A stretch of 64,000 bases of DNA from Thermodesulfobacteriota bacterium (GTDB lineage Bacteria > Desulfobacterota_D > UBA1144 > Nemesobacterales > UBA2774): positions 496,001-560,000 of the forward strand of contig JBFMCV010000001.1 of the NCBI GenBank assembly GCA_040754335.1. The letters are read 5' to 3'. The position numbers were made by a program, and so were the translations under genes. Below are positions 7,620-45,345 of this stretch, piece after piece. Within the stretch, counting starts at the first letter, position 1, and each line of letters starts with the position of its first letter. Below the pieces are notes generated by a model. It worked only from the letters and a program-made list of their open reading frames with translations, was not told the origin of the DNA and did not search any database.

Positions 7620-8617
7620 CTTCTGCCCCCGAAGCTTATCCTGGGGTCTACGAGCACGTAGACTAGGTCCGATATCAGTATCCCTATGAGTGTGAGGAAC
7701 GCCGATATAGTAGCTATAGCCATTATCATCGGGTAATCGCGGGCGAGCACCGACTCGAACCCGAGCTGGCCTATCCCCGGTATTGAGAATATCGTCTCTA
7801 TGATGACGCTCCCGCCTATCATCGCGGGGAGTATTCCGGCGAGTATGGTTATTATAGGTATGAGCGCGTTTCTCAGCGCATGCTTGAGTATGACCTTATG
7901 CCTGGGAAGGCCCTTGGCCGAGGCCGTCCTCACGTAATCTTCCCTGAGCACCTCGAGGAGGCTCCCCTTCTGGAACCTCGAAAGGTAGGCGAGGCTCCCG
8001 TAAGTGAGGCAGAACACGGGAAGGACTATGTGCCAGAGGAAATTGACCGCCTTCTCGGGGAAGGGATAATTCTCCGCACCCGGCGAGAGTATCCCGTAAA
8101 CGGGGAAGACGTTCCAGTACTCCCCCCCGCCGAGAAAGAAAATAAGTATCATCGCCATCCAGAAGCTGGGTATGGAATAGAGGATGAAAAGAAGGAACGT
8201 GCTCGCCCTTTCGCCGGCCGTCCCGTGCCTGACGGCCGCGTAAACCCCTATGGGTATGGCAGTCAGATATATGAGGACTATCGATATAAAGTTGAGCGTG
8301 ATAGTGATGGGGAGACGCTCCGCTATTTTATCTATGACGGGGCGGTGGTCTTTATACGACCGTCCGAAGTCGAGAGTGGCTATCTGCTTTAACCATATCC
8401 AGTATCTTACGTATATGGGCTTGTCGAGTCCGTAGAGCCTCTTCGTCTCCTCGACTATCTCCTTCGTAATAGCCTCCGACTTTATGCCTTCTTCCAGCTG
8501 GAGCTTCCTCTCGACGGGGTTCCCGGGGGCGAGCTGGATAATGAAGAACGTGATTATCGTTATCCCGAGGAGCGTGGGTATGAGCAGTACGAGTCGCTTG
8601 ATTATATAGTCTCTCAT
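7616..8617 (-). CDS. dppB: Oligo/dipeptide ABC transporter permease (DppB/OppB type)
   Basis: 333-residue inner-membrane permease with an N-terminal helix (about 9-31, LVLLIPTLLGITIITFFIIQ), the conserved QLAPGNP motif and an EAA loop EDYVRTASAKGLPRHKVILK. It forms the channel with DppC. A 147-base spacer separates it from the binding-protein gene dppA; such spacers often attenuate transcription so that the binding protein is made in excess, but I see no clear terminator here. Confidence 0.93.
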   Translation of the reverse strand: MRDYIIKRLVLLIPTLLGITIITFFIIQLAPGNPVERKLQLEEGIKSEAITKEIVEETKRLYGLDKPIYVRYWIWLKQIATLDFGRSYKDHRPVIDKIAERLPITITLNFISIVLIYLTAIPIGVYAAVRHGTAGERASTFLLFILYSIPSFWMAMILIFFLGGGEYWNVFPVYGILSPGAENYPFPEKAVNFLWHIVLPVFCLTYGSLAYLSRFQKGSLLEVLREDYVRTASAKGLPRHKVILKHALRNALIPIITILAGILPAMIGGSVIIETIFSIPGIGQLGFESVLARDYPMIMAIATISAFLTLIGILISDLVYVLVDPRISFGGRR

Positions 8618-8764
8618 GTCCGGGCCAATCGGAATTATATGCGGTTATAGGGGAAATATTAAGCGCGGCTATAAAATGCCGTCCTCTATGCCCGCCCGGA
8701 TTAAAATTATACGGGTATACGTCGATAAGTCTCAAGCCGGATTCGCGCGCTGCCGTACTCGACG

Positions 8765-10414
8765 CTATTCTGCGTATCTATGGAGCTCCTGGGGCACGTA
8801 CCATTCTATGGGGTCGACGCCCAGGGGATAGACCGTGACGTTCTCGAAGCGCTTGGCGACGGCGACGGTGGCCTTCCTGCAGAAGAGGAACGTGTAGGGC
8901 TGCTGGTCGTTCACGATCTCCGAGAACTTCCGGTAAAGCTCTATCCTCTTTTGTCTGTCGAACTCCTGCCTGGCCTGCTCGATCAGCCTGTCGGCCTCGG
9001 CGTTCTTAAACCCGACGAAGTTCGAGCCGCTCTCGGCCTGGGTCGAGCTCCATATCTGATATGGGTCGGACTCGACGCCCATCGACCAGGCGAGAGTGAC
9101 CGCGTCGAATTTCCTTTCGTTGAGCCTGGTCGTAAATACCGCCCATTCGGTCTTCCGTATGTCCATTTTTATCCCCATCTTGTCGAGCTCTTCCTTGAGT
9201 ATGGTAGCTATCTTCTCACCCGTTTCGGAGCCGCCCGGTATAAGGAACTCGAACGCGAACTTCACCCCGTCCTTATCCCTTATACCGTCGCCGTCGTGGT
9301 CGGTCCAGCCTGCCTCTTCGAGGAGCGACTTGGCCCGCGCGGGGTCGTAAGGGATGGGCTTTATGTCCTTATCGTATTCGGGGCTGTTTATGTAAAAGGG
9401 GTTCGTGACCACGGCCCCGAGGTCGAACATAATTTTGTTCAATATAAGCTCCCGGTTCACGAGGTGAGTCATGGCCCTCCTGACGCGCTTGTCGGAGAAA
9501 AAAGGCCTCGCCGAGTTCCATCCTATGTAGCTGTAGTTGGGCGTGTAGTAGCTAAACTTGTCGAAGTTCTTTTCGAAATCGGGGGAGCCCGTCTGCATCT
9601 CCCACTGTATGGGGGTGAGGCTCGCGACGTCGAGCTCCTCCCTTTTAAGCACCTGGAGAGCGACGGAGGGGTCGGTGATAATCCTGAACACGATTTTATT
9701 GATGTGAGGTTTTTCCCCCCAGTAGTCGGGGTTCTTTTCGAGCACTATCTCTCTCCCGGTCGTCCACTTCACGAACCTGAACGGGCCCGTGCCTACGGGA
9801 GCCCTTCCCGCGGGGTTCGTGTTGAAGTCCCCCTTTTCGAAAATGTGCCTGGGCACTATGGGGATTCCGCCGCAGAACTCGAGCGCGAGGAAGTAGGGCC
9901 TCGCGTAAGTGAACTTCACCGTGTGCTCGTCTATCGCCTCCACGTCCTTTATCTCCTGGTAGTAGCTCCGGAGCTGCGGTGCGTCGACTTTCGGGTCCAT
10001 AATGGTCTTGTAGGAGTACACGATGTCATCGGCGGTGAACGGTACGCCGTCCTGCCACTTGATCCCCTCCCTTATTTTGAACGTGTACGTGAGCTTGTCG
10101 TCCGATATCGTCCAGGACTCGGCCAGGAGCGGTTTTAGTTCGAGTGTCGCGTTGTCCCGTTTGACGAGCGTTTCGTACACATTGCCCCCCGTTATTATCC
10201 CCTCGTAGGCGTCTGTCGCCGTGATGGGGTTGAGCGTCGCGGGCTCCGCACTAAGGTGGTAAATGAGCCAGTCGCCCTCGACGGGCCCGGTCGCGGTTTT
10301 GTCCGATGCGGATTCCGCCGGTGCGGTTTCATTTTTCTCTTCCCCGGATTTGCACGACAGGAGTCCGGATATTATGGCAATTCCCAGGAACGCTGATAGC
10401 AGTATTCTCTTCAC
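8765..10414 (-). CDS. dppA: Peptide ABC transporter substrate-binding lipoprotein (SBP family 5)
   Basis: 549 residues. A lipoprotein signal ends in the lipobox LLSC with the lipidated cysteine at C21, so it is anchored in the envelope. The family 5 solute-binding fold follows, with the TYTFKIREGIKWQDGVPFTA signature near residue 110 and the VRRAMTHLVNR hinge near 310. The start is GTG with AAGGAG seven bases upstream. It leads dppBCDF and lies only 39 bases after the slipin gene, so nfeD, slipin and the transporter may share a transcript. Confidence 0.92.
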   Translation of the reverse strand: MKRILLSAFLGIAIISGLLSCKSGEEKNETAPAESASDKTATGPVEGDWLIYHLSAEPATLNPITATDAYEGIITGGNVYETLVKRDNATLELKPLLAESWTISDDKLTYTFKIREGIKWQDGVPFTADDIVYSYKTIMDPKVDAPQLRSYYQEIKDVEAIDEHTVKFTYARPYFLALEFCGGIPIVPRHIFEKGDFNTNPAGRAPVGTGPFRFVKWTTGREIVLEKNPDYWGEKPHINKIVFRIITDPSVALQVLKREELDVASLTPIQWEMQTGSPDFEKNFDKFSYYTPNYSYIGWNSARPFFSDKRVRRAMTHLVNRELILNKIMFDLGAVVTNPFYINSPEYDKDIKPIPYDPARAKSLLEEAGWTDHDGDGIRDKDGVKFAFEFLIPGGSETGEKIATILKEELDKMGIKMDIRKTEWAVFTTRLNERKFDAVTLAWSMGVESDPYQIWSSTQAESGSNFVGFKNAEADRLIEQARQEFDRQKRIELYRKFSEIVNDQQPYTFLFCRKATVAVAKRFENVTVYPLGVDPIEWYVPQELHRYAE

Positions 10415-27457: not shown

Positions 27458-27989
27458 AATACCTGTAAATTTGGCGGTTTTGTGTGAATCTGGGAAAAGA
27501 AAAGCAAAAGGGGCGGACAATGTCCGCTATTTATTGTCATGCTGAACCCTGAATTGATCCCGTATCAAGTACGGGACATGGTTCAGAGCGGGTTTGTTTC
27601 AACATCTCGCTTTATTCGTGAGATTGCCGCGCGAATTTTTCATTCCCTCCTTTGGAAAAGGAGGACGATTGCAAGCGAGCGTGCAATCGGACGCCATGCG
27701 CTGATTGCTATTGGGTTGTATAGCTCGGTACAAGCGTAAGATAAGCCAAATCAGGGAGGATTTTTCTTTTTTATTTTTAAATTCCCCTTAATTTAGATTT
27801 AATAGCTGCGTAACTCCAATTAAGATAGTTCTGTGCCGTATATCAGCACCGACCAATTCCTCCGATTTGTCGGAATTGTTCCCCTTTTTCTAAGGGGGAA
27901 AAACATAGCAAGCTCAGCGTGAACGGTTTTGGCTTGTAAGTGGTGAGGCAAAGGGGTTTCAGGAGAATCATAAAACACACGTATGTGTG
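27458..27989. repeat. Repeat-rich gene desert
   Basis: No gene is supported in these 532 bases. A 45-base element at 27542-27586, beginning CTGAACCCTGAATTGATC and containing the palindrome GATCCCGTATCAAG...GTACGGGAC, is found inverted and identical at 40285-40329. A GAGATTGCCGCGC piece (27620-27632) resembles the end of the GIY-YIG flanking repeat. CCCTCCTTTGG/AAAAGGAGG (27643-27664) and CCCC/GGGG palindromes (27883-27900) belong to the family seen at 22.6 kb. The DNA is AT-rich between 27760 and 27850. Confidence 0.75.
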
Positions 27990-40055: not shown

Positions 40056-40452
40056 TGGGAAAAATTCAGACTAATTATTTTTTTCCTCGCGCCACGCCCG
40101 TCCTGAGCGTAGTCGAAGGGATGGCGCTCCTGCAAAAGTTAAAATCTCGGGTCTTGTAGGAGCGAGTTCCCGAATCAAGTTCGGGACAGGCCAGCCGCGA
40201 GTAATTTTTAATCCACCCTGCCGCTCCACCTTTTCCCTATGAGGAAATAAAAATGAAAAGGTGAGATGCTGAAACAAGCCTGCCCTGAACCATGTCCCGT
40301 ACTTGATACGGGATCAATTCAGGGTTCAGCGTGACTATATAGAGACGTCTGGAGACAAGGGTGGAGAGACGCACTATGTGTGAGTCGGAATGGTAATAAA
40401 GACAGCAATGCACTATTATTTTATTGATTCAAGCATCGGGAGGAGTGCAGAA
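40056..40452. repeat. Repeat-filled intergenic region
   Basis: Contains a GTCCTGAGCGTAGTCGAAGGG element (40100-40120), a compound REP-like element 40154-40199 whose centre is an extra palindrome (TCCCGAATC...TTCGGGA), and the 45-base element 40285-40329, an exact inverted copy of 27542-27586 with weaker similarity continuing on both sides. No gene is supported until the SDR start at 40453. Confidence 0.78.
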
Positions 40453-41187
40453 ATGCCTGAGAGAGTAGCTCTTGTAACAGGCGGGGCCAGGGGGATCGGC
40501 AGGGAGATAGCGCTTGCGCTCGCGGAGAGGGGGTGGTCAGTCGCAATATGCTACAGGAAGAGCAAGAAAGAAGCCGCCGAAACCGTAAAGGATATAGAAT
40601 CCAGCGGGGCCAGGGGAGTCCACTATAAGTCGGACGTGTCGAACCCCACGTCGGCGGTAGACCTGGTTAGAAAGGTCGAAGGCGAATGGGGTAGGATAGA
40701 CGCGCTCATAAACTGCGCGGGGCCCTATCACAGGGTAAACCTGCTCAAGGAGTCGGTCGAAGGCTGGCACGAGATGTTCGACAACAACCTCCACCCCGTT
40801 TTCTATCTCTCGCGCACAGTCGCCGAAGGCATGAAATCGCGCGGCTGGGGGAGGATAATCAATTTCGGCATGGCTAACGCGGATAAACTTAGCGCGCAGA
40901 CGGAGATAACGGCCCACTACATCGCCAAGGCGGGCGTGCTCATCCTCACGCGCTCGCTCGCGAGGCTCCTGGCCCCTCACGGCATAACTGTGAACGCCAT
41001 ATCTCCCGGTTTTATCTACTCCGGAAGCGCACCGATGGAGGAGCTCGAAAGCATGGTCAAGACGATACCCGCGGGATACATAGGGAGCACGAAGGACGCG
41101 GTGGACACGGCTTTGTTTCTCTTATCCGATGAGGCGCGGTACGTGAACGGGACTAATATACATCTAAGCGGCGGTTGGGGGCTTTAG
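40453..41187 (+). CDS. Short-chain dehydrogenase/reductase with altered active site
   Basis: 244 residues from the ATG at 40453, which has GGGAGGAG upstream. The cofactor motif TGGARGIG (9-16) and NCAG (87-90) are classical. At the active site, where FabG has serine the sequence reads INFGMAN, and the tyrosine region reads AHYIAK: Y156 and K159 are one residue closer than the usual YxxxK. The fold is intact, with the PG and SGGW C-terminal motifs. It may be a pteridine-reductase-like or otherwise diverged SDR; classical FabG activity looks doubtful. Confidence 0.85.
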   Translation: MPERVALVTGGARGIGREIALALAERGWSVAICYRKSKKEAAETVKDIESSGARGVHYKSDVSNPTSAVDLVRKVEGEWGRIDALINCAGPYHRVNLLKESVEGWHEMFDNNLHPVFYLSRTVAEGMKSRGWGRIINFGMANADKLSAQTEITAHYIAKAGVLILTRSLARLLAPHGITVNAISPGFIYSGSAPMEELESMVKTIPAGYIGSTKDAVDTALFLLSDEARYVNGTNIHLSGGWGL

Positions 41188-41194
41188 CAGTGAT

Positions 41195-41220
41195 AAAAAA
41201 GGGGGAACATATTGTCCCCC
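41195..41220 (-). terminator. Intrinsic terminator between convergent genes
   Basis: Read on the minus strand, GGGGGACA-ATA-TGTTCCCCC (41220-41201, one bulge) is followed by six T residues (41200-41195). It ends the phytase-like gene, whose stop is 31 bases upstream; on the plus strand it may also stop SDR transcripts. Confidence 0.8.
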
Positions 41221-41250
41221 CTCTTCTACTCGTCGTCTACTCAATTCTTC

Positions 41251-44115
41251 TTACTCGTCTATTTCATATACCGTGGTCGTACCGCTTATTTCGTTTCCAA
41301 CGACGAGGAGCGCCTTTCCGTTCGGGCTTTCGCTCGAAGGGACGAAGAACAATCCTTCCGGCCCGAGGTCGCCGGCAAGCGGGTTCGAGCTGTCGTCCGG
41401 GTTCTGTGCATCTACGGCAAAGTTGCGGTTGTTCATGTATTCGACGAATTTGGGCGAAGTCGGCTTCGTGATGTCGTACACCATTATTCCGCTTATCCTC
41501 TCGAGCCCTATGAACGCGTACGTCTTCTGCCCGATCTTGCCTACGACCACTCCCTCGGGCTCGGGCCCTTTGTCGTCGCTCCTTGAGTCGAACGAATCGT
41601 TGTCGGTATTATCCGAGTTGAACTGCGCTGGGAAGGCGTCCGCCGTTATGAACTCGAAATCGTCGCTTGAGTCGTAAACGAGGTTTCCGAAGGAGTCCCA
41701 TATCGAGAAAGACCTTGCGCCGAAGCTGAATATCCTGTCGTTATCGCCGTCTCCGTCGATGTCCCCTATGATATTGGTCGTCTTGAGCCTGCCGAGGTTC
41801 TCGTCGTCGCCAAGCGTGGAAGCGTCCGGGAATTCGTCCGGGTCGAGGTCCAGGTCCTTCACCCTCTCTTCCTCCGAGAAGAATTCGAAATCCCTGGTGT
41901 CGCCTTCGTTTGCGGTAACGTAATAGGTTGCGCCCTTATAGCTGTACTTGTCTATGCCGTCCGACTGGTACATGCCCAGCACCGGCCAGTTCTGGATATT
42001 GATCGCGGAGTCATCGTCGGATGCGTCGAGCATGTTGCCTTCGGAGAATTTGATGAGGCCGAGGACCGGCTTGAACCCTGCGGAGGCTTCTATGCCGAAA
42101 TCGTTGTCGTTCATCACGGCGATACGTCCGTCCGGCAGGATCGTTATGCCCTCCGCCTTATCGCTCGGGAGATAACCGAGCGACGGGAGGTTGAGCACCT
42201 TCCGTTTGAAGACGGGTATGATCCCGAGATCAACGAGCGCGTCGGGCGAATGCTTTTCTAGCGTCATGCCGGCCGCGAGGTCCGCGAGAGGCAGGTTCCT
42301 GATATTCGTGGCCCCTTTCAGGTCTATTTCGAATACGAACTTTTTGGCGGTCGATACGAGCGCACTGTCCCTCTCTATGACCAGGAACTTGTCTTCGCCT
42401 ATGAAGACCGCGTCGCCTATCTTGTCCACGTCGTCGGGCGTGTGCGCGGGCCTCTCGAGGAGATAGACGTACTCCGCGACGGGGTTCAGGTAATCAGGAG
42501 AGCTTTCGTCCACGTCCACAGCCAGTATTCTGAGAACGCGCGAGCTCCTGGCCGAGCTGTCGGGGTTATCGAGCGGGGACTGTACGAACGCATAGAGGAT
42601 CCTCTTGTCGGGGTCGAGCGCCGTGCCCTCGAACCCGCGGTTCACCCTCCGCTTGCTGTAGACCTCCGGGAGCGTCTCCATTCCGTAGAATCCCGGGCTG
42701 TTCGCGTTAGGGCCGAACTGCGCAATCTTTAAAGCCGAATCCCCGAGGAGGTGCGTGTTTTCCGGGACGAGCCTGACTATCAACTTGCCCTTGTCCGTGA
42801 AGTGATATATCGCAGGCCTGTATTCGTCCACCATCCAGAAAGAGTTATCTATGGGGTCCCTGACTATCCCTTCGAGGTCTGCTCCGAAGCGGTCGTATTT
42901 GACCGGATTCCCTTTCGCGTCAACCGGTATCTCGTCGAAGCCCGGTATGTTGGGCAGGCCCGTGATAGGCGTCTTCCCGTCCGCGCGGGTTAAAAGTATG
43001 GTTTTCGTTATTTCGGCTTCTTCACCATCATGGCCGCCGAAATCGTTATGTCTCCCGTGCCCGCCGCCGTTCTTCTCTGTTTCGAACGCTATTATCCTCG
43101 CCTGATATTTGGGGAGGTTGAACGTACGCGAGCCGTTTACGACGTCCGCGCCGTTCGGTCCCCTGTCGGAAACGGTGAGGAATTTGAGCACTCCTTTCTT
43201 TCCCGAACCGTCGTAATGGAGGCCCGAGAATCCGCCCAGTTTTATCTTGAGCTTGTTCGCGTCTATGCCTATGAGCGGGAGCTCGTCGAATTTAAAGAGG
43301 TCGAGGCCGGGCTGCCCCGTGCTGTGGTCTTTCCACCCTGCGGGGAGTATGTCGACTATTTTGGGCGTCGCGATATCGACCACTGCGAACGCGTTTGCCT
43401 CCTGCAGGGTGACGAAGGCCTGCTTTCCGTCGGGGGATATCGCAGGGAATTCGGGCTCTAGCTCGAGCGACATCGGAACCCCCTCCTGGAGCCTCAGTCC
43501 CTTGTTCGTGAATTCGGCTTCCCTGCCGTCGAACGCGCCGAATCCGAGCGTCGTTACGGTTGCCGAGGGAACGCCTGACGGGATTTTTACTACGCTTATT
43601 GACCCCGGCGGGTTTGCTATCAGGTTGCCGCCGCCGTCCTCGACGGGCTCGCCTTCGTTAGCGACGACGAGTGTTCTGCCGTCAGGCGAAAACTTTACCG
43701 CGTCGGGGAGCACGCCCACGTTAACGAACCCGAGGAATGCGCCCGCTGTATCGTAGAACACAAGGTAGCCGTTCATGGTCGGGTCCGCATTCTCAGTTGC
43801 GACTGCGACTATGCCGTTTTTCACGTCGACGCTGTTCACTCCGCCGACTGAGAGACCCAGATCCACCGCCACGTCTATTGAGAACAAGAGGGTCGGCGCG
43901 GTCGGGTCCGAAATACTGATCGCTTCTACGACCGACTGGTCAGCATTTATGACGAATACGGTCTCGGTCCCAGGGTCGTAGGCGACTATCTCGGCAGCGC
44001 CGTCTTCGAATACCCCCGTTTCGTATGTCCCTATCGGTGTGAGATTTATGCCTGCCATGGATGATGCCGGCAGTGCCGATAGAATGATTAAAGCGATATA
44101 TAGGAATCTCGACAT
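41251..44115 (-). CDS. Secreted choice-of-anchor I protein with inserted phytase-like esterase domain
   Basis: 954 residues from the ATG at 44115, eight bases after AAGGAGG. Signal peptide 1-21. The N-terminal part (about 25-240) and the C-terminal part (about 660-954, ending LLVVGNEISGTTTVYEIDE) together make a choice-of-anchor I beta-propeller-like domain. Between them (about 250-640) lies an esterase-like phytase domain with DGIVRDP-type motifs (LEGIVRDPIDNSFWMVDEY) and many acidic calcium-binding-type loops. It probably hydrolyses phosphate esters outside the inner membrane. No C-terminal anchor was found. PhoP/PhoB-like repeats precede the promoter. Confidence 0.85.
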   Translation of the reverse strand: MSRFLYIALIILSALPASSMAGINLTPIGTYETGVFEDGAAEIVAYDPGTETVFVINADQSVVEAISISDPTAPTLLFSIDVAVDLGLSVGGVNSVDVKNGIVAVATENADPTMNGYLVFYDTAGAFLGFVNVGVLPDAVKFSPDGRTLVVANEGEPVEDGGGNLIANPPGSISVVKIPSGVPSATVTTLGFGAFDGREAEFTNKGLRLQEGVPMSLELEPEFPAISPDGKQAFVTLQEANAFAVVDIATPKIVDILPAGWKDHSTGQPGLDLFKFDELPLIGIDANKLKIKLGGFSGLHYDGSGKKGVLKFLTVSDRGPNGADVVNGSRTFNLPKYQARIIAFETEKNGGGHGRHNDFGGHDGEEAEITKTILLTRADGKTPITGLPNIPGFDEIPVDAKGNPVKYDRFGADLEGIVRDPIDNSFWMVDEYRPAIYHFTDKGKLIVRLVPENTHLLGDSALKIAQFGPNANSPGFYGMETLPEVYSKRRVNRGFEGTALDPDKRILYAFVQSPLDNPDSSARSSRVLRILAVDVDESSPDYLNPVAEYVYLLERPAHTPDDVDKIGDAVFIGEDKFLVIERDSALVSTAKKFVFEIDLKGATNIRNLPLADLAAGMTLEKHSPDALVDLGIIPVFKRKVLNLPSLGYLPSDKAEGITILPDGRIAVMNDNDFGIEASAGFKPVLGLIKFSEGNMLDASDDDSAINIQNWPVLGMYQSDGIDKYSYKGATYYVTANEGDTRDFEFFSEEERVKDLDLDPDEFPDASTLGDDENLGRLKTTNIIGDIDGDGDNDRIFSFGARSFSIWDSFGNLVYDSSDDFEFITADAFPAQFNSDNTDNDSFDSRSDDKGPEPEGVVVGKIGQKTYAFIGLERISGIMVYDITKPTSPKFVEYMNNRNFAVDAQNPDDSSNPLAGDLGPEGLFFVPSSESPNGKALLVVGNEISGTTTVYEIDE

Positions 44116-44177
44116 TCTCACTTCCTCCTTTGTTTGATTGTTAATTGATTCGAGAAGCAGAGAGAGTTTCGGCGATT

Positions 44178-44218
44178 TTTATAAAGCCATGGTTAACTGC
44201 CGGTTAACCGGGAGTTAA
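44178..44218 (-). promoter_or_regulatory. Candidate Pho-box promoter of the phytase-like gene
   Basis: On the minus strand three TTAAC words (44218-44214 region, 44207-44203 and 44196-44192) recur exactly every 11 bases, the spacing of PhoB/PhoP direct repeats. Eight bases after the last word comes TATAAA (44183-44178), a -10-like box. The repeats therefore stand where an activator replaces the -35 box. The phytase-like start codon is about 63 bases further on. Confidence 0.6.
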
Positions 44219-44291
44219 GAAGGCGATGATAAACGCGACGCGGCCGTTATCGGTTACAAAACCGGAAACTGGAATTCTTTCCTTGCTTTGT

Positions 44292-44297
44292 TATAAT
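44292..44297 (+). promoter_or_regulatory. TATAAT box 10 bases before the M42 peptidase start
   Basis: A perfect TATAAT (44292-44297) ends ten bases before the ATG at 44308 and no Shine-Dalgarno sequence is present. Transcription would begin about four bases before the start codon. The -35 region (TGGAAT near 44270) is weak. Confidence 0.5.
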
Positions 44298-44307
44298 CAT
44301 CTCTCCA

Positions 44308-45345
44308 ATGGACCTGGGTTTACTCAAGAAACTATGCGAAGCGCCGGGCCTCCCCGGCCACGAAGGGCCTGTAAAGGAGATCATAAGAGAGGCGTTCTCC
44401 GAATTCACGCAAGATATCGGAGAGGACGCCCTCGGCAATATCATAGCCCGCGTCCCCGGAAAGGGGCCCAAGCTCGTCATCGACGCCCATACGGATGAGG
44501 TGGGGTTCATGGTGAGCCATATCGACGCCAAAGGGTTCCTCCACGTCATCCCTTTAGGCGGCATGGACCCGAGGGTCTTTTACGCGCAGAGGATAACAGT
44601 GTGGGGGAGAAAACCCGTCACCGGGACAGTAGCCGCCATACCTCCCCATGTGAGCCGGAACTCGAACAACAAGGAAGTGCCCGAGGTCGAGGACTGCGTC
44701 GTCGATCTGGGGCTTTCGGCGGACAAGGTCAGGGAGCTCGTCAGGGTCGGGGACGTTGCGTCATTCAACTACCCGTTCGAAGAGACTGAGGACGCGCTTA
44801 TCTCCAAAGCAATCGACGACAGGGTCGGGTTATTCGTAATGATCGAAGCGCTTAAAAGAAAGCCTAAGCTCTCCTGCGACCTCTATCTAACCGCTACCGT
44901 CCAGGAGGAGGTGGGGCTCAGGGGCGCGAACGTGATAGTGCCCGCGATAGAGCCCGATTTCGCAATTGCGATAGAGGGCACGGTCGCCATGGACGTGCCG
45001 GGCATATCGGAGCACAAGACGCTCGCAAATACGGGCAAGGGCCCTGAAGTGAGGCTCTCCGACAGGTTCCTCGTCGCACACAGGCCGTTCAGCGACTTTA
45101 TAATGAAAACGGCTGAGCTGAAAAAAATCCCCTACCAGATCACCGTGAAGAAGGCGGGCTCGACCAACGCGACGGCCATGCAGGTCACTGGAAAGGGCAC
45201 GCGGGCGGCTTCGGTATCGGTCCCGGTGCGCTACCTCCACAGCCCCAGCTGCCTCGCCTATAAATCCGACATAGGGCACACGATAGACCTGATACACGCG
45301 GTCATTGAAAGCGTAGGAGACTTTGGGAAAGACCCTTCGCGCTGA
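44308..45345 (+). CDS. M42-family aminopeptidase/glucanase-like metallopeptidase
   Basis: 345 residues. The metal ligands of the M42 (TET, FrvX, endoglucanase-annotated) family are visible: H61 and D63 (DAHTDEVGF), D170 (SKAIDDRVG), E200-E201 (VQEEVGLRG), an acidic residue in AIEGTVAMD and a histidine in RYLHSPS. These proteins form dodecameric aminopeptidases that finish peptide degradation in the cytoplasm. The gene is divergent from the phytase-like gene and has a near-leaderless promoter. Confidence 0.92.
   Translation: MDLGLLKKLCEAPGLPGHEGPVKEIIREAFSEFTQDIGEDALGNIIARVPGKGPKLVIDAHTDEVGFMVSHIDAKGFLHVIPLGGMDPRVFYAQRITVWGRKPVTGTVAAIPPHVSRNSNNKEVPEVEDCVVDLGLSADKVRELVRVGDVASFNYPFEETEDALISKAIDDRVGLFVMIEALKRKPKLSCDLYLTATVQEEVGLRGANVIVPAIEPDFAIAIEGTVAMDVPGISEHKTLANTGKGPEVRLSDRFLVAHRPFSDFIMKTAELKKIPYQITVKKAGSTNATAMQVTGKGTRAASVSVPVRYLHSPSCLAYKSDIGHTIDLIHAVIESVGDFGKDPSR

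Follow-up and report, generated by a model that had tools for sequence, protein, structure and literature searches.

A Pho box of three TTAAC units before a phytase-like/choice-of-anchor-I gene and its conservation across a bacterial order

The window, by which we mean the whole 64-kb stretch of DNA analysed here, holds, within the region 40390-45345, a phytase-like gene situated between an SDR gene and an M42 gene. The phytase-like gene, which encodes a choice-of-anchor-I protein, is read on the minus strand and faces the divergent M42 peptidase gene across a gap of 192 bases, in which the repeat described here is found. The features of the locus are as follows.

44308..45345, plus strand: M42 aminopeptidase gene, the divergent neighbour, which shares the gap and is not a conserved target of the box
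44218-44214, 44207-44203 and 44196-44192, minus strand: three TTAAC words at steps of exactly 11 bases
44192..44218, minus strand: Pho box of three TTAAC units with an 11-base period, assigned from sequence and from its association with pst/pho genes throughout the genome and the order
44181..44185, minus strand: TTTAT, a possible degenerate fourth unit, weak, in register with the others
44178..44183, minus strand: TATAAA, candidate -10 element, 8 bases past the last TTAAC
44124..44128, minus strand: GGAGG ribosome-binding site, recognised from sequence, 8 bases 5' of the ATG at 44115
41251..44115, minus strand: the gene predicted to be controlled, encoding a 954-aa exported choice-of-anchor I protein with an inserted Phytase-like domain

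Positions 44219-44173 read CTTAACTCCCGGTTAACCGGCAGTTAACCATGGCTTTATAAAAATCG 5' to 3' on the minus strand, and the box can be divided into units of 8 bases joined by linkers of 3 bases, CTTAACTC-ccg-GTTAACCG-gca-GTTAACCA. The initial annotation had described three minus-strand TTAAC words at 11-base steps, ending eight bases before a TATAAA, and this description is exact. The core of the box is palindromic, the plus strand reading TTAAC-N6-TTAAC-N6-TTAAG with one mismatch; the orientation is therefore assigned from the match without mismatch on the minus strand, from the TATAAA and from the relatives, and is less certain for this box than for the other sites.

The TTAAC triple, read on both strands (GTTAAC being palindromic), is the sole exact 5-mer triple at 11-base steps in the window. 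From the frequency of the word itself, ∼1e-5 exact TTAAC triples are expected per window and 5e-4 per 3.26 Mb, and the genome contains two. Allowing up to three mismatches, the window yields eight overlapping matches, where shuffled sequences predict 0.37; apart from a weak A+T-rich cluster at 27776-27814, they come from the site at 44192-44218. This cluster is a three-mismatch TTAA-rich repeat, also with an 11-base period, in an A+T-rich intergenic gap; its flanking genes have no evident link to phosphate and it was set aside as probably due to chance.

Since a single 5-mer triple of some kind per 64-kb window is only mildly unusual when the word is not chosen beforehand (∼0.06, estimated as 4^-10 x 64 kb), we place the weight on a genome-wide test. 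We scanned all 20 contigs of the genome (3.26 Mb) for TTAAC-N6-TTAAC-N6-TTAAC, allowing two mismatches at most, with the reversed pattern and the N5 and N7 spacings as controls. The N6 triple gives 28 matches, a figure that includes overlapping and opposite-strand readings and corresponds to ∼17 distinct places, versus three for the reversed pattern. The N5 spacing (10-base steps) gives no match and the N7 spacing (12-base steps) three, so the enrichment is specific to the 11-base period. Some of the weaker matches, among them one upstream of a helicase gene, probably arose by chance, about three being expected from the controls.

Phosphate genes are found behind these boxes. Two box clusters precede pstS (TIGR02136 above cut-off) and the downstream pst genes, the box standing before pstSCAB (pstB being TIGR00972 above cut-off), and another lies in the divergent promoter region between a Porin_O_P gene and phoB-phoR. 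Boxes are also found before a Metallophos_2 (metallophosphoesterase) gene, before a gene whose protein has a 5'-nucleotidase C-terminal domain (here with four units), before an SLC13/CitMHS-type symporter gene and before a gene row of glycosyltransferase, PAP2 and glycosyltransferase. The initial annotation had left it to such a scan whether the triple precedes pst, pho and phosphatase genes or is missing from their promoters or scattered at random; it precedes pstS, the metallophosphoesterase and 5'-nucleotidase genes and the phoB/phoR-porin region, and its matches in the whole genome far outnumber those of all three controls.

Further boxes lie before exported or small proteins without known function, and three of these proteins keep their box in related genomes. 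A 196-aa protein (METDNLDRS; L032, G000:C3, ∼8213-8805, plus strand) has the box TTAACACAATCTTCACACNGTCTTAAC, near letter-identical in G001, G002 and G003, and gave no match in searches of Pfam and NCBIfam. An exported protein of 883 aa, whose C-terminal part apparently contains membrane segments (L031, G000:C2, 5693-8344, plus strand), has an exact three-unit box directly upstream of its gene and an 85% identical, box-bearing copy in G001; neither a Pfam or NCBIfam match nor a solved relative was found for it. The third, a 233-aa exported protein (TEGFNVKTP; L029, G000:C1, 4576-5277, minus strand) without a Pfam match, is kept together with its box in G001, G002, G004 and G011. A sulfotransferase-family gene with an upstream box occurs in two genera (L031:13071-14515 and L139 of G011) and is possibly part of the replacement of phosphate groups under starvation.

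Across the order, the box (up to two mismatches) is present in 29 of 29 pstS upstream regions, each comprising 300 bases from a relative, with a shuffled expectation of 0.00. For the control gene M42, at the same threshold and on the M42 strand, it is present upstream in two of 30 genomes, namely the window genome and G011, both of which have a divergent choice-of-anchor-I neighbour. In a search of 148 genomes with up to one mismatch, genomes of the organism's own family show several matches each and almost none with the reversed control, and the signal weakens outside the class. Another 20 regions taken from relatives have all their sites of up to one mismatch outside open reading frames, mostly before genes for porins, metallophosphoesterases, PAP2/glycosyltransferase proteins, sulfotransferases, proteins of unknown function and a DnaD-like HTH protein. 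Before the DnaD/HTH_36-type gene, an exact three-unit box followed by TATAAT lies 176-196 bases upstream in L132, L138 and L142 (G004, G011 and G015, respectively). Another region, L097 (G005), has a one-mismatch box at 1391-1417 upstream of an M42 gene, on the opposite strand and without an evident divergent gene behind it.

The promoter layout provides a separate line of evidence, because the 75 sites compared, drawn from this genome and its relatives, were collected by the box alone. A hexamer matching TATAAT in at least five of six positions starts exactly 10 bases past the last unit in 28 of them, where ∼1.1 would be expected per position, although the sites come from related genomes and the 28 are not independent events. 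This mode fits the E. coli arrangement, with an activator in the place of the -35 element. In the window the TATAAA lies at 8 bases, off the mode of the lineage, and the hexamer at the modal distance is TAAAAA (44181-44176); either the 8-base spacing is tolerated or the TAAAAA at 10 bases is used. At both distances the box stands just before a candidate -10 element and in place of a -35 element, the arrangement typical of a Pho box. No sigma-70 type -35/-10 pair was found in the 192-base gap, as expected for an activator-dependent promoter.

The 954-aa product has a Phytase-like domain (PF13449) at residues 292-673, between the two halves of a choice-of-anchor I domain (PF22494; Pfam). PF13449 scores 173.5 bits against a curated threshold of 27.6, PF22494 scores 389.3 against 32 and NF038117 scores 525.8 against 300, placing the protein in these families. 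Choice-of-anchor I is named for sorting signals only. Relatives of the gene in G034, G011, G029 and G021, which are all four with an intact upstream region, carry three to five box units within ∼120 bases upstream of the start. The G034 relative is 68% identical over its full length and has the same Phytase-like insert; the other three have the choice-of-anchor-I domain without the insert, and the box is still present. Two genomes of the window organism's genus, G002 and G003, lack the gene; there the flanking genes are adjacent and no box was found. The presence of the box in the relatives and its absence from these two genomes indicate that it goes with the gene and not with the place. In G026 the gene is broken, being interrupted by a stop codon and having a 5' part that is not recognised, and there is no box; a Phytase-like paralogue in the window genome itself (G000:C3) also has none. 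SDR and M42 genes are direct neighbours in the same-genus genomes, and the phytase-like gene was either gained in this genome or lost in those.

These comparisons bear on whether the main target of the box is instead the divergent M42 peptidase gene, or whether it acts on both genes. The box does lie between the two, its plus strand also reads as a box, with one mismatch and a GATAAA that follows the last unit after 8 bases, and in G005 an M42 gene has an upstream one-mismatch box, on the opposite strand, with no phytase-like gene. Service to M42 is nevertheless improbable, as 28 of the 30 M42 upstream regions lack the box on the M42 strand, the remaining two are those with a choice-of-anchor-I neighbour, and in G034, G029 and G021 the box stands before a choice-of-anchor-I gene that has other genes as neighbours.

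The initial annotation had called the product a secreted phytase-like esterase. The protein is exported and has the PF13449 domain, but "phytase-like esterase" is taken from the name of this Pfam domain, which here interrupts a choice-of-anchor-I protein and is missing from three boxed relatives. A structure model of the 954-aa protein (mean pLDDT 57.7) is too poor to judge activity, and the sole solved relative by sequence, a surface-layer protein matching residues 122-260, does not settle it. Phytase-family proteins of Crocosphaera share the Phytase-like domain (∼42% identical over residues 270-675), but consist of that domain alone, whereas here it is an insertion. The named cyanobacterial matches to the window protein are only distant relatives, and no convincing box was found at the Crocosphaera genes with the TTAAC pattern used. 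In Nodularia, P limitation strongly induces the gene of a protein annotated as "esterase-like activity of phytase family / atypical alkaline phosphatase" (PMC9846622), which supports, without proving, a phosphatase role for the insert, and we infer such an activity for the 954-aa product. The box being kept with or without the insert, a more tentative reading is that choice-of-anchor-I proteins may themselves be phosphate-scavenging enzymes, with the scaffold as the Pho-controlled activity.

The PhoP box of Bacillus subtilis consists of TTAACA-like repeats, a near-identical word with the same 11-base period. The SphR (PhoB-type) box of cyanobacteria, for example at Synechocystis sphX, phoA and pstS2, comprises three CTTAACCT units, or at least three tandem 8-base units like it, with 3-base linkers, and likewise precedes genes for Pst components and phosphatases (PMC1906773). 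The present box differs in belonging to another lineage, in its variable outer bases and in often having a fourth unit. The Pho box of E. coli is similar in having 11-base direct repeats ∼10 bases before the -10 element (PMC1906773, PMC4415409), but its word is CTGTCAT and its minimum is two units, against TTAAC and three to four units here; the Streptomyces word differs from TTAAC as well (PMC4415409). With 11-base direct repeats, the same motif before pst/pho genes of the same genome, and both word and 8+3 layout matching, the assignment of the window site as a real Pho box of the cyanobacterial SphR type is well supported on sequence grounds.

The genome encodes a PhoB/PhoR pair (G000:C5), the regulator at L034:7267-7956 and the kinase at L034:7964-9733. 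The kinase is NCBIfam PnpS above cut-off; the best match of the regulator is PhoB, at 242.7 bits versus an equivalog cut-off of 296.2, so it is named from best match and context only. This shortfall, and the fact that tandem-repeat binding is common to OmpR-family proteins, would be compatible with the TTAAC repeats being bound by some other OmpR-family regulator with an 11-base repeat site. We regard this as very unlikely, given that the boxes stand before phosphate genes, among them pstS in all 29 of 29 genomes and the locus of the regulator itself, and that the word is that of the cyanobacterial Pho box. A chance repeat, for which only the mild rarity of a 5-mer triple in 64 kb speaks, is scarcely credible beside the spacing-specific enrichment, the pst/pho association and the conservation before relatives.

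We thus conclude with high confidence that the repeat serves as operator in a promoter of the Pho regulon before the phytase-like gene. Phosphate-starvation control had been suggested for this gene initially, and the boxes at pstS and the phoB/phoR-porin region, at every pstS examined in the order and before all intact relatives of the gene lend support to that view. Under low phosphate, we predict that the PhoR/PnpS-like kinase phosphorylates the PhoB-like regulator (L034:7267-7956), whose winged-helix domains would each occupy one 11-base unit, arranged head to tail along the same face of the DNA. The bound regulator would replace the -35 element and RNA polymerase would be recruited to the -10 element just downstream. 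The exported phytase-like/choice-of-anchor-I protein would then be made and, outside the cytoplasm, may draw on organic esters as a source of phosphate.

Pho boxes are a familiar type of control site; the new elements here are the assignment of the operator in this order and the regulon members that have no known function. A literature search for the Pho regulon of this lineage found no description, which is a weak negative. Controlled sequence comparisons alone thus suffice to fix the Pho operator of a bacterial order, from which a set of genes predicted to respond to phosphate starvation can be listed. This list includes the 196-aa, 233-aa and 883-aa proteins as predicted regulon members, and ties the choice-of-anchor-I family to phosphate supply.
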